DNA of 64,000 bases from Leptolyngbya sp. NIES-2104. GTDB taxonomy: Bacteria; Cyanobacteriota; Cyanobacteriia; Leptolyngbyales; Leptolyngbyaceae. This document shows, one piece after another, positions 27,404-30,849 of the stretch (the first letter of the stretch is position 1; every line of letters starts with the position of its first letter). Location of the stretch: NCBI RefSeq assembly GCF_001485215.1, contig NZ_BBWW01000001.1, forward strand, positions 4,588,001 to 4,652,000, given 5' to 3'. The notes below the pieces were generated by a model. It was not told the origin of the DNA. It saw only the letters and a program-made list of their open reading frames with translations, and made no database searches. A program made the position numbers and the translations under genes.

Positions 27404-27841
27404 CTAAGCAAGGCTTGAATGATAAAGCTTTTGAAGTTGAAGCGCCTTACTCATATCGTACGGGATTAGTCGGCGCAGTGGGCGATAGTCTCGATCCATA
27501 GGAGCACTATGCCGCAGAACTGCATTGACCAAAACACAAGGCGAACCGCTGAGATTGATTGCACCGTGGGGCACTCCGGGCGGAATTTTCACCACTTACG
27601 GTTGCAATTCGCTTAACGGAATGTATTGATACTTACGATTTTGCAACACAACTAAAATGAAACTGCCCCGCACCACAAGTAATTGATCGGTTTGCGTCCG
27701 GTGAACAAATAAATCATCGATCGTGCCTGCGGGAATATTCACCAACATTGTTTCATGGCTCGATTGCGGTGTGTAAAACTCTGCCATGCCGCCTTTAATC
27801 GATTCAAGCGGAAAAATTTCAACTTGCGTTTTTAAGCTCAT
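27404..27841 (-). pseudogene. Cupin protein gene interrupted by an in-frame TAA
   Basis: A single frame of 145 codons reads as one cupin-fold protein apart from a TAA at 27598-27596. The first part starts MSLKTQVEIFPLESIKGGM and contains VNIPAGTIDDLFVHRTQTDQ and LVVRGSFILVVL. After the stop the frame continues directly with VVKIPPGVPHGAINLSG and LRHSAPMDRDYRPLRRL, the second cupin motif. A single C-to-T change from CAA would explain the stop. Related cupins resemble the FdtA/WxcM epimerase-like group. The damage looks recent, since no other lesion is visible. Readthrough or restart at the adjacent GTG pair is possible but unproven. Confidence 0.8.
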
Positions 27842-27964: not shown

Positions 27965-27993
27965 TTGACTTCTAGCCGTTAGCACATTAATAC
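27965..27993 (+). promoter_or_regulatory. Sigma-70-type promoter of the envelope operon
   Basis: TTGACT (27965-27970) and TAATAC (27988-27993) are separated by 17 bases, close to TTGACA/TATAAT spacing, 50 bases upstream of the first gene of the four-gene operon. Confidence 0.55.
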
Positions 27994-27999
27994 TATTTA

Positions 28000-28015
28000 T
28001 AGTACTATCGTACTA
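28000..28015. promoter_or_regulatory. Inverted repeat near the predicted transcription start (candidate operator)
   Basis: TAGTAC and GTACTA are separated by TATC, starting seven bases after the predicted -10 box, where a repressor dimer would block transcription. Function is inferred from position and symmetry only. Confidence 0.35.
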
Positions 28016-28042
28016 GAGATTCACTTGCCCTAAGGAGCCGCG

Positions 28043-28834
28043 ATGACAGAAGTGAAAACAGAAAGCCAATCCACCCGGATCATGCAAACCCAACCGACCG
28101 TCAAACGGCAGACCACAAAGTCGATCGCTGATCCAACGCGCACCAGTGAATCGATCCCAACGAGTGACGAGTCTACCACCGAAGCGCCCCCCACCAAAAA
28201 ACGCCGCACAACGAAAACTGAAAAACCCCCCACCGCAAAACGGCAAGCAACGAATAAAACGCCAAATCAATCCGCTTCCACCCGCGTCAAACTCACTTGG
28301 GAAGCAACCCCCTCAATTGAAGCTGTTCTGATTCAATTTAACGAGCAATTAAACGCAACTTGGGCAGCGATCGACGATCTCAAAGCCACCGTCGAGAAAA
28401 TGCAGGAACAGGACGGAACGCGATCGACTTCCTCGAATGTGCAATTGCCGCTTGAACGTCCCGCACAACCGCCCGTTAGACCGCCTCAGCCCTCGATTCC
28501 CACCTTCCGCCCCACAACACAGATTCCGGTCGGTCGGACTCGTCGCCGTAAATCCATGCAGCGCGTCATACAGCGATTGTTAAAACTCCCCGATCAGAAT
28601 TCTGGAATTGCGATCGATGCTGCTCTTTGGGTGTTCGCCGCAGCAGGATTGCGAGTCGGTTTGAGCTATCTTGTGACCTTGCTCCCGATTCTGAAATTTC
28701 CGGTAATTCTGTTGATGTTCGTTCCCGCATTACTTGCAGCTTATGCAGCACTGTTTATTCCTCAAGCCAATCGGATTGGAATCTACCGATTGTTACTGGT
28801 GACATTGGGATTGTTCGTTGGAGGAAAACTATGA
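28043..28834 (+). CDS. Envelope operon gene 1: disordered N-terminus plus membrane C-terminus
   Basis: A 263-residue protein I do not recognise. Residues 1-85 are low-complexity, rich in Thr, Lys, Pro and Ser, with repeated TKKRRTTKTEKPPTAKRQ-type tracts. Residues about 88-130 form a helical, possibly coiled-coil region (VKLTWEATPSIEAVLIQFNE). A Pro-rich linker (about 140-165) and the basic TRRRKSMQR follow, then two or three hydrophobic segments (about 190-263). The orientation suggests a cytoplasmic disordered tail attached to a membrane anchor. Its stop overlaps the next start as ATGA. It is preceded by AAGGAG and a good promoter. Confidence 0.65.
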   Translation: MTEVKTESQSTRIMQTQPTVKRQTTKSIADPTRTSESIPTSDESTTEAPPTKKRRTTKTEKPPTAKRQATNKTPNQSASTRVKLTWEATPSIEAVLIQFNEQLNATWAAIDDLKATVEKMQEQDGTRSTSSNVQLPLERPAQPPVRPPQPSIPTFRPTTQIPVGRTRRRKSMQRVIQRLLKLPDQNSGIAIDAALWVFAAAGLRVGLSYLVTLLPILKFPVILLMFVPALLAAYAALFIPQANRIGIYRLLLVTLGLFVGGKL

Positions 28835-29226
28835 TCGAAAAACTCAACTCCAATCAGTTACTCGCGGGAGTTGCAGGAATTTTAGCGCTCGGAATCTTTT
28901 TTCAAGCAATGGGACTACCCTCGTTTGGAAGTAAGGAAGCAGCTTTGGAATGTCAGGGAGCGGTGCGATCGCAACAATCGACTTCCAAAGACGACCTCGC
29001 CCGACTGATTCAGATTGACACCGGAAACTCAAAAGAAGCCATTCGCAAACTGCTTAAAGAGCCGTACTGTGTCCTACCCTCGATCTCTGTGCGAACGGGA
29101 GCACCGACCGATCGCGAAGTGTACCGAGTTGCCTCTGATGCCCTAGAGAAAGCCACCTCCCAAACCTATCTCGTTGTTTCGTATGAAGGCAATCAATACC
29201 AGGGCTACCGCTTCTGGATTCGCTAA
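28831..29226 (+). CDS. Envelope operon gene 2: single-span periplasmic protein
   Basis: A 131-residue protein beginning MIEKLNSNQLLAGVAG, with a hydrophobic anchor at about 9-29. A periplasmic region follows with two Cys (ALECQG and EPYCVLP) that could form a disulfide, and it ends SYEGNQYQGYRFWIR. I do not recognise the family. The ATG at 28831 overlaps the previous TGA, and its ribosome-binding site GGAGG lies inside gene 1. The gene's 3' end overlaps the start of gene 3 by 44 bases. It is probably co-produced with its neighbours. Confidence 0.65.
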   Translation: MIEKLNSNQLLAGVAGILALGIFFQAMGLPSFGSKEAALECQGAVRSQQSTSKDDLARLIQIDTGNSKEAIRKLLKEPYCVLPSISVRTGAPTDREVYRVASDALEKATSQTYLVVSYEGNQYQGYRFWIR

Positions 29227-29656
29227 GTTCGCAGGGGTTCTACTCCTGATGTCCGGTTGTTCTGCGGCAAAACCCGCTGAGAACACCATTCCAGAACCCA
29301 AACTTTACCAAAGTTGGCAACTCAAACCCGGAGACGACATTGCTGGAGCAAAAGTGATCGGAGGACTCGGAGATATTTCGATCGCGCTGAACGGCAAATC
29401 CGTTTATGCTCCATCCGATGGGAATACGTACATTGATAAACGCGGCTGTGTGTACTTTTCTGGTGCAGATACGCCCGCTTATCTATTTCGCCTCTGTGGA
29501 CTCGAAAAACCCAAGCTTGGAGCATTGAGCGAGGGAGACAAAATTGCGACTGGACAAATGCTGCAATTTGCGACTTTGCTCAAACAAGCCGACAACAGTT
29601 GGGCACTCGTCGAACCTGATAAAAGCCTCTTGCAACGCACCCTAAAGCCACGATGA
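29183..29656 (+). CDS. Envelope operon gene 3: lipoprotein with hybrid-barrel-like domain
   Basis: A 157-residue product. The N-terminus MKAINTRATASGFAKFAG, then VLLLMSGC, is a lipoprotein signal with the lipobox Cys at about residue 27. The mature part reads KPGDDIAGAKVIGGLGDISI and SVYAPSDGNTYID, then LSEGDKIATGQMLQFAT. This alternation of 'APSDG' and 'G..I..GQ.L' phrases is reminiscent of barrel-sandwich or M23-like duplicated hybrid folds, but no metal-binding HxH is present. The function is unknown. Its TGA overlaps the next ATG (ATGA). Confidence 0.65.
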   Translation: MKAINTRATASGFAKFAGVLLLMSGCSAAKPAENTIPEPKLYQSWQLKPGDDIAGAKVIGGLGDISIALNGKSVYAPSDGNTYIDKRGCVYFSGADTPAYLFRLCGLEKPKLGALSEGDKIATGQMLQFATLLKQADNSWALVEPDKSLLQRTLKPR

Positions 29657-30525
29657 AAAAGATTGTTTCCCTGATGATGAGCGTGATTGTTCTCACGTTA
29701 TCTGGAGCAAGATCAACGCAAGCTCAAGGATTACTCAATTTCAACCCAAAAGCCTCTCAATCTGCACCGAAGCTATCTAAGGCTCAACCTGCACCGATCG
29801 CACAAAAAGCAACTAATAAACCCGCGATCACGTTCCAAGTTCCTGAAAATGATCCGGTTGCAGTTACTCCGGTTCAGCCAGTGTTTCGACCCGTTGAGAA
29901 TGACGATCGCTTAGTCGCTATGGCTCCCGATGAACTATTCGACGGCGGTTCCAATTCTCTCGTTGCTAGAGCAGTTGGAAGTGCTGAAGGAACTCGCACA
30001 CCGGATGGCAACAAAACTTGGGCGTACTATGGACACACCGATCCGGGAAATGGGGTCTGGAATATGGGCAGCTTTTCTTATCAGCATGGGGCAGGTTCGC
30101 CAGATGAAGCCGATCGTCGTCAACTCAGCCGATTACGCGGACAGTACAACATGATCGAACAATCGGCGCGTTCTGTCGGACTGCGGCTCGGATTAGAAGA
30201 ACAATTAAACGGAATCGATCTAGCAAATCAGGCTCCCCTTGCAGCATTAGAGCGAGGCGGATATGTCGATCGATTAAGAGAAGCTTATGCCCAAGGATTA
30301 CGCGGTTCCGAAGCGGTTCTACAAGCGCGGACTTACTCGTATATCAACCCCCGCACCAATCAATGGGATGCTCCTGGACTGGGAAATAATTTTCATAGCA
30401 TCAGTCGCGATCAGGCGCGGCGGCAGAATGCGATCTATGATGCGATTCAGAATCATCAGCAGCAAATTGCTCGATCGCGATCACAAGATAATTCTAAACT
30501 CAGCCAGATTCCTGAGAATCCTTAA
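29653..30525 (+). CDS. Envelope operon gene 4: secreted protein, possible muramidase-like
   Basis: The 290-residue product has a signal peptide (MKKIVSLMMSVIVLTLSGAR, cleavage near TQAQG) and a variable Pro/Ala linker (about 26-95). A compact domain follows with VARAVGSAEGTRTPDGNKTW, YYGHTDPGNGVWNMGSFSYQ, QLNGIDLANQAPLAALERGG and ARTYSYINPRTNQWDAPGLG. The early Glu in GSAEGT followed by GHTDPGN recalls the Glu-plus-glycine-loop arrangement of lysozyme-like folds. I infer, without proof, a glycan hydrolase or binding role. It ends the four-gene operon. Confidence 0.65.
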   Translation: MKKIVSLMMSVIVLTLSGARSTQAQGLLNFNPKASQSAPKLSKAQPAPIAQKATNKPAITFQVPENDPVAVTPVQPVFRPVENDDRLVAMAPDELFDGGSNSLVARAVGSAEGTRTPDGNKTWAYYGHTDPGNGVWNMGSFSYQHGAGSPDEADRRQLSRLRGQYNMIEQSARSVGLRLGLEEQLNGIDLANQAPLAALERGGYVDRLREAYAQGLRGSEAVLQARTYSYINPRTNQWDAPGLGNNFHSISRDQARRQNAIYDAIQNHQQQIARSRSQDNSKLSQIPENP

Positions 30526-30612: not shown

Positions 30613-30849
30613 ATGACTCAAGCAAAAGAAGGGATCACGATCGAACAACGCCTTGACGAATTGGTTAATCAAGCTCATTCAGCCTGTGGCGAAAACGGCA
30701 TGATGTCCGGTGAATGTGCCACCGCTTGGGATGCGGTCGAAGAAGTTCAAGCTGAGATTGCCCATCGTCGATCGGATGTGAAAAGTACGCTTAACGTCTA
30801 CTGCGATGAGAATCCGGATGCGGCTGAATGTCGCATTTATGACGTTTAG
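30613..30849 (+). CDS. cp12: CP12 Calvin cycle regulator
   Basis: The 78-residue protein has the full CP12 layout: an N-terminal Cys pair (HSACGENGMMSGECATAWDA) separated by eight residues, the AWDAVEEVQAEIAHRR helix, and the C-terminal pair in YCDENPDAAECRIYDV. Oxidised CP12 forms disulfides and ties GAPDH to phosphoribulokinase, switching off carbon fixation in the dark. All four cysteines are present. The start is preceded by AAGGGATAAGG. A hairpin terminator about 200 bases downstream leaves a long 3' untranslated region. Confidence 0.96.
   Translation: MTQAKEGITIEQRLDELVNQAHSACGENGMMSGECATAWDAVEEVQAEIAHRRSDVKSTLNVYCDENPDAAECRIYDV

Follow-up and report, generated by a model that had tools for sequence, protein, structure and literature searches.

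The locus

The window analysed here, a 64,000-nucleotide stretch of Leptolyngbya sp. NIES-2104 (assembly GCF_001485215.1, contig NZ_BBWW01000001.1, positions 4,588,001 to 4,652,000), carries on its forward strand four overlapping genes, designated g1 to g4, behind a promoter and an inverted repeat. A first-pass annotation made from the sequence had described them as an envelope operon of no known family with a candidate operator. Our analysis finds that the operon is real, conserved and without a name, that its third and fourth products are predicted to be a degenerate LytM lipoprotein and an exported lysozyme-type protein, and that the operator is a candidate LexA box. The features are listed in window coordinates.

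27965–27993, + strand: sigma-70-type promoter, with TTGACT at 27965–27970, an N17 spacer and TAATAC at 27988–27993
28000–28015, + strand: inverted repeat TAGTAC-TATC-GTACTA just 3' of the −10 element, including the LexA-type box AGTACTATCGTACT at 28001–28014
28043–28834, + strand: g1, 263 amino acids; disordered or coiled N-terminus and conserved C-terminus with three hydrophobic segments
28831–29226, + strand: g2, 131 amino acids; single N-terminal hydrophobic segment, Cys41 and Cys80 conserved
29183–29656, + strand: g3, 157 amino acids counted from the ATG at 29183; lipobox Cys26, LytM/M23 fold predicted
29653–30525, + strand: g4, 290 amino acids; signal-like N-terminus, lysozyme-type fold predicted, Glu112 invariant

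The layout is as first described. Neighbouring genes overlap by ATGA at 28831–28834 (g1/g2), by 44 bases at 29183–29226 (g2/g3) and by ATGA at 29653–29656 (g3/g4), and the hydrophobic segments of g1 and g2 agree with the membrane C-terminus and the single span that had been proposed for them. The proposed promoter is not only present but kept in an alignment of the window with seven loci of the same genus, where the −10 element reads TAATAC in all eight rows and the −35 element reads TTGACT in seven and TTGACA in one. Both arms of the inverted repeat, the proposed operator, are likewise kept in all seven complete rows (the row of L062 ends before the second arm as a result of the chosen gene start), while the 4-base loop between them differs (TATC, GAAG, CTGC, GAAA). 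Nonsynonymous divergence between the window and two relatives, calculated by the Nei–Gojobori method (NG86), is 0.08–0.18 for the four genes and synonymous divergence is 0.72–1.11, with the caveat that the first g3 codons in the L111 row do not match those of the window. Therefore, purifying selection acts on each of the four genes.

Conservation and gene order

The first-pass annotation could assign the operon to no known system, and none emerged from the family searches: g1 to g4 of the window have no significant match in Pfam, PHROGs or NCBIfam, although for g1 to g3 it should be kept in mind that holin and spanin families are short and easily missed. Nor is the gene order peculiar to this genome. 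Among the genomes of 58 relatives, g4 was found in 44, g3 in 44, g2 in 43 and g1 in 38. A scan of named genomes returned 196 relatives of g4, and gene order was read in the best 80 of these 196 loci, some of which end at contig ends. The complete order g1-g2-g3-g4 is kept in 52 of the 80, followed by g2-g3-g4 in 11, g4 alone in 8, g1-g2-g4 in 4, g2-g4 and g3-g4 in 2 each and g1-g2-g3 in 1. Those of the 80 loci that are labelled with a genus come mostly from genera such as Leptolyngbya, Nodosilinea, Phormidesmis, Myxacorys and Oculatella, and the others are labelled simply as cyanobacterium. Across the phylum g3 is rare, being present in at least 9 of 244 genomes with up to 14 candidates scored per genome. 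In one genome (L093) g2 and g3 are fused into a single open reading frame (ORF).

Searches with family members of g1 and g2 gave weak, scattered matches that we attribute to chance or coiled coil: among 24 g1 members, Lebercilin in 2 (best E 0.00035) and ECM29 in one (0.00036), and among 42 g2 members, POLR3C_WHD in 14 (best 0.0098). A first g2 profile also caught g3 sequences, probably by way of the fused g2-g3 ORF, and was replaced by a new one. Distant relatives of g2 (L081–L085) lie elsewhere in the genus, on separate replicons or contigs, among small ORFs, in some regions together with ORFs of 1466–2146 amino acids.

g4, a predicted lysozyme-type protein

The fourth protein had been singled out for its muramidase-like Glu/GHTDPGN region, and this region is real. 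In an alignment of 58 sequences (the window protein and 57 of the 89 ORFs matched), Glu112, His128, Asp130, Asn137 and other residues are invariant, and the conserved block can be written E-x12-Y-x2-H-x-D-P-G-N. Folding from this alignment gave a model with a predicted local distance difference test score (pLDDT) of 85, the part up to about residue 90 having low confidence, and in this model Glu112 ends a helix spanning residues 103–112. The lysozyme fold that had been suspected is indeed what the model resembles. The top nine Foldseek rows all bear titles of muramidases, endolysins or peptidoglycan hydrolases (E 0.09–0.53), and VIA placed P22 lysozyme first (Z 8.9 over 136 residues), ahead of further phage lysozymes, MltE/MltF and GH46 enzymes. 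The signal-like hydrophobic segment at its N-terminus predicts export of g4, its predicted fold is of the lysozyme type and near that of GH24, and a muramidase activity can be inferred from the model. By sequence, g4 is not a member of GH24: PF00959 is absent from the Pfam matches of the 58 members up to E 1.

Other searches with g4 were less informative. Neither phmmer nor hmmsearch matched it to a PDB sequence, and an EncFtn-like match in 6 of the 58 members (best E 0.0083) is taken as chance or coiled coil. True M23 matches occur in 2 of the 58 (best Pfam E 1.6e-28). In PHROGs, g4 members matched 49 families. Among the 25 listed, the leading ones are peptidase and endolysin families that match two members, most likely the same M23-bearing members from viral contigs, and other families match a single member.

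g3, a predicted inactive LytM lipoprotein

The third protein had been annotated as a lipoprotein, in keeping with which Cys26 is aligned in 55 of 56 members and a lipobox pattern occurs in 44 of the 56 (55 of 67 matched ORFs plus the window protein). No hydrophobic segment of g3 rises above threshold. The AlphaFold2 (AF2) model made from the 56 sequences has a pLDDT of 86, and its best Foldseek match is the LytM domain of DipM (E 1.9e-3, probability 1.00), with the LytM domain of PrgK in the third row. The top VIA rows are LytM/M23 domains by title (Z 8.0–10.3, the best being 10.3 over 99 residues) and include DipM at Z 9.7 and a chain from an AmiB–EnvC LytM entry at Z 9.6. Profile comparison led to the same family: the g3 profile matched M23 domains with E 1.2e-5, and control comparisons of unrelated pairs gave nothing. 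The M23 profile was built from 8 of 10 M23 matches in the host genome and five plasmid or phage domains after removal of reverse-strand loci.

The same comparison suggests why g3 would be inactive, as the HLHF of M23 aligns with LQFA. The g3 alignment contains no invariant or nearly invariant His column, a position-blind motif search found HxxxD in only 8 and HxH in only 2 of the 56 members, and none of the members reached Pfam M23 with an E-value better than 0.25. Two cysteines, Cys89 and Cys105, are present in all 56. We therefore describe g3 as a predicted lipid-anchored, degenerate LytM/M23 domain without conserved zinc-ligand motifs. A search of g3 against PDB sequences with phmmer and hmmsearch returned eight designed repeat proteins and two matches with E > 1, which are taken as artefact.

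A candidate LexA box in front of the operon

A LexA-type switch governs DNA-damage genes in many bacteria. The cyanobacterial LexA box has been reported as RGTACNNNDGTWCB, with the later consensus AGTACWNWTGTACT (PMC3091678). The repeat in the window fits RGTACNNNDGTWCB exactly on the − strand (AGTACGATAGTACT), and the identical string of L111 has 0 mismatches. To place this match in context, the region from 300 bases before to 60 bases after the start of the first gene was scored at 70 of the 80 loci, the other 10 having fewer than 200 bases upstream or no + strand gene. The box was exact in 35 of the 70 and had no more than a single mismatch in 60; the frequency in the remaining sequence of these loci would give 0.0014 and 0.062 per region. 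Among control upstream regions of 302 other mechanically called ORFs of at least 150 amino acids in these loci, 2 were exact and 14 had at most one mismatch. Sorted by the first gene of the operon, the box at this tolerance precedes g1 in 48 of 52 loci, g2 in 7 of 12 and g4 in 5 of 6. A blind search of all 5-base palindromes with gaps of 0–12, in which LexA was not assumed, ranked the same motif first, as TAGTA-N6-TACTA in 25 of 70 loci (0.07 expected) and AGTAC-N4-GTACT in 23 (0.03 expected). The consensus of the 60 sites, AGTACA(C/T)TTGTACT, fits the later published form. These counts are not independent events, the loci being related and some genomes giving two, and against this may be set the retention of the arms within the genus while the loop varies. 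The operator of the operon is therefore best described as a candidate LexA box that matches the published one and is enriched at related loci. A near-perfect palindrome over the expected transcription start suggests tight repression, which would suit a harmful product.

The host genome contains three LexA-family genes above the cut-off (L228, L229 and L230), one of them on contig C3. The promoter of L228 holds GATACAAATGTTCT and GATACAAGTGTTCT, and that of its paralogue L229 holds AGTACACTTGTTCT. L229 keeps both the Ala-Gly cleavage pair and the Ser motif and L228 lacks Ala-Gly, so that L229 is probably the likelier damage-responsive regulator of the two. Upstream of the relatives' lexA genes, of which 29 of 31 were read (L288 being left out), a looser RRTACNNNDGTWCB is exact in 26 of 29, a count that has no control set.

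Mobile relatives of g4 and nearby or fused M23 domains

Relatives of g4 are also found on plasmids and in phages, repeatedly beside an M23 domain. In pC052_F of Nostoc sp. C052, an annotated M23 peptidase gene (Pfam M23 E 1.3e-4, which falls short of the curated cut-off) overlaps at its end with the g4 relative, and one protein encoded on a plasmid of Leptolyngbya sp. BL0902 combines an M23 domain (E 4.7e-13) with a g4 domain. Plasmid1 of L. boryana encodes a protein with M23 and DUF2927 (L105 7795–9168), two small genes upstream of its g4 relative. On a Calothrix plasmid with a g4 relative, none of three scanned proteins matched M23. Of the g4 relatives in two phage records, one adjoins amidase and M23 genes and the other lies within a LysM protein; the latter is a 990-amino-acid protein so annotated in an uncultured Krakvirus (L102 2200–5172). 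Relatives of g4 occur as well in ten viral contigs, some of whose DNA may belong to hosts, with M23-like strings in 3 of the 10 (L195, L196 and L197). LexA-type boxes were looked for near the plasmid, phage and viral-contig copies and are not consistently there. Together with the g2-g3 fusion, the mobile fusions and neighbours support the view that M23-type and g4 parts may work together.

Two explanations draw on these mobile copies. In the first, the operon is a wall-opening part left from, or serving, plasmid transfer. Plasmid relatives of g4 with M23 adjoining, near or fused speak for it, as do the distant g2 relatives near long ORFs on other replicons and the precedent of PrgK in pCF10 conjugation, which is reported to combine a degenerate LytM domain with a muramidase. 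We nonetheless consider this explanation very unlikely. All ten matched plasmid records are typed as non-mobilizable in PLSDB, and the neighbours of the chromosomal operon vary among 41 regions, which were clustered by BLAST and not annotated, so that transfer genes could be among them.

The second explanation, itself one form of the reading that we prefer below, is a domesticated phage-type lysis cassette under LexA, in which g1 would be holin-like, g2 and g3 a spanin-like pair in the inner and outer membranes and g4 an exported endolysin. The overlapping four-gene layout, the hydrophobic profile, the lipoprotein and the g4 relatives in phage records and viral contigs are what such a cassette would lead one to expect. 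It becomes improbable in view of g1 and g2, which have no significant phage or Pfam family, and of g3, with its predicted LytM fold; we know of no spanin with this fold. In the clustered, unannotated regions just described, nothing next to the operon was recognised as a phage neighbourhood. The g4 tree, in which several plasmid and phage sequences sit on long branches, does not resolve a phage origin either. One row of this tree (L197, branch 6.3) was wrongly cut, and nothing rests on it.

A proposed murein-cutting module under LexA

Many filamentous cyanobacteria share this four-gene set, which appears to build a wall-cutting machine in the envelope. With a probability of roughly 0.55, we read the operon as a LexA-controlled, murein-cutting envelope module whose muramidase would be directed by an inactive LytM lipoprotein. 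LexA or a LexA paralogue, bound to the box at the expected transcription start, would keep the operon off, and its release would allow all four proteins to be made together. As proposed in the first-pass annotation, they may be produced stoichiometrically and may form one trans-envelope complex. The g1 and g2 proteins would anchor in the inner membrane and couple the module to it, g4 would be exported as a muramidase that cuts glycan strands, and the inactive LytM domain of g3 would dock with and control the enzyme in the periplasm, by analogy with DipM and EnvC. The genes, their conservation and the box with its enrichment are observations, and the folds and membrane segments are predictions. 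LexA binding, induction by damage, muramidase activity, contact between g3 and g4 and the biological use we infer.

Several observations weigh against this assignment. On the side of the proteins, every Foldseek E-value for g3 and g4 is above 0.001, and the g4 profile has no detectable similarity to GH24 in a comparison with a six-genome GH24 set. On the side of the regulator, Ala-Thr replaces the Ala-Gly cleavage pair in L228, the best-scoring LexA. Moreover, 10 of the 70 operon upstreams have no box at one mismatch or fewer, although two of these have one slightly farther up and two have a palindrome with two mismatches. The pattern AGTACNNNNGTACT occurs at 5 places in the 6.4 Mb host genome, one of them this operon, compared to 3 for a backward control pattern, and therefore does not mark a large regulon. 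A box of this form had also been anticipated in front of recA, where it is mostly absent: among the 23 of 28 upstreams read (L231–L258; 2 of 30 loci were left out, and the starts of L255 and L256 are doubtful), only 5 have it at one mismatch or fewer, one of these exactly. Finally, LexA of Synechocystis is reported to govern carbon assimilation and motility and not DNA repair (PMC5101192).

Some of these points would be explained if a different regulator read the same palindrome and the operon were unrelated to LexA. The mostly boxless recA genes fit such a regulator, as does the lower symmetry of the main lexA boxes in the genus, GATACAARTGTTCT, and the operon was not found in the available portions of the LexA literature examined. 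We regard this alternative as doubtful, because the consensus of the sites equals the published LexA consensus and L229 carries a box in its own promoter. A link to NtcA was set aside, as the GTA-N8-TAC spacing of its sites misfits the gap of six found here.

What the module would be used for is a separate question. Wall opening in damaged or stressed cells, by lysis or filament breakage, is the use that we tentatively favour, and wall remodelling while division is held is nearly as likely. Damaged cells may thus have a means of opening their own wall when triggered to do so. A stronger version is a LexA-triggered self-opening, in which the damaged cell cuts its own wall and dies as a sacrificial (necridial) cell so that the filament breaks, by means of a device put together from wall-cutting parts of which phages and plasmids are also carriers. 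Filamentous cyanobacteria are reported to release filament pieces through dead cells (necridia), and one review searched for these terms does not mention LexA, SOS or endolysin. We rate this version as unlikely.

The competing proposal, which overlaps with ours in mechanism and differs in use, is a wall-remodelling or septum device that is active when division is held, or a partner of the septal nanopores, trimming septal murein without killing. Damage-induced restraint of division by a wall hydrolase is reported for ChiZ of mycobacteria (PMC3989709), and a cyanobacterial LytM factor, Alr3353, is reported to interact with the amidase AmiC1 and to affect nanopores (PMC6463045). Long conservation in many genomes is also in its favour, as is the presence of HetR in 8 of the 9 g3-bearing genomes of the phylum set (57 of 244 overall). 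In its specific form this proposal seems somewhat unlikely, since the operon contains no recognised amidase or division gene and g3 was found in 8 of the 57 HetR-bearing genomes (with up to 14 candidates scored per genome), which argues against a general part of filament septa.

Comparison with known systems

The closest counterparts of g3 are DipM and EnvC, exported LytM-fold proteins without catalytic zinc motifs whose entries are among its best fold matches, and with which we place NlpD, presumably another inactive LytM regulator. In contrast to these three, g3 is a single small lipid-anchored domain, encoded in an operon with its presumed enzyme, with no recognised amidase and with a LexA-type box in front. 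DipM is reported to stimulate a lytic transglycosylase and an amidase, and inactive LytM domains are described as controlling a muramidase or other autolysins in both PrgK and DipM. PrgK resembles the g3-g4 pair in joining a degenerate LytM domain to a muramidase; its LytM and CHAP domains reportedly lower muramidase activity on walls of E. faecalis and not on those of V. cholerae. It is, however, one protein of a Gram-positive transfer system, whereas here a cyanobacterial chromosome encodes the parts as separate proteins, and no transfer gene was recognised among the neighbours, which were clustered and not annotated. The Alr3353–AmiC1 pair of the Anabaena septal nanopores likewise combines a cyanobacterial LytM factor with a murein hydrolase, an amidase in that case, unlike the lysozyme-type g4. 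We know of no LexA control of that pair.

By their descriptions, the damage-induced wall-acting or division-stopping proteins ChiZ (Rv2719c), YneA and SosA can be likened to the operon, but they are single proteins and not a four-gene set with a lysozyme-type enzyme. The GH24 phage lysozymes share the predicted fold of g4, which differs from them in having neither PF00959 nor profile similarity and in having its own conserved block. Predicted cyanobacterial LexA regulons, covering 26 lexA-bearing genomes, have the same box, and the operon was not found in the accessible part of that study (PMC3091678). Nor was it found described in the open-licence literature on cyanobacterial wall hydrolases, LytM proteins, LexA and SOS. 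The parts are thus of known kinds, and their combination and control are new as far as the literature examined goes.

How single cells of filamentous cyanobacteria are killed or opened, and which genes LexA controls, are only partly known, and the operon offers a concrete, testable candidate that would link a stress regulator to wall cutting. It also adds a lysozyme-fold family without a name (g4) and a lipoprotein branch of the inactive LytM proteins (g3), both as predicted from models. The self-opening device, if true, would give the programmed sacrifice of cells in multicellular bacteria a molecular basis.

Neighbouring genes

A CP12 gene (30613–30849, + strand; Pfam CP12, E 8.4e-27) lies 87 bases downstream of the operon, and a CP12 relative also adjoins it in two regions of the same genus, L064 and L065. 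On the other side, a 145-codon gene on the − strand (27404–27841), which we take to be cupin-like, has an in-frame TAA at codon 82 that divides it into pieces of 81 and 63 amino acids. Its counterparts in eight relatives are 145–155 amino acids long.

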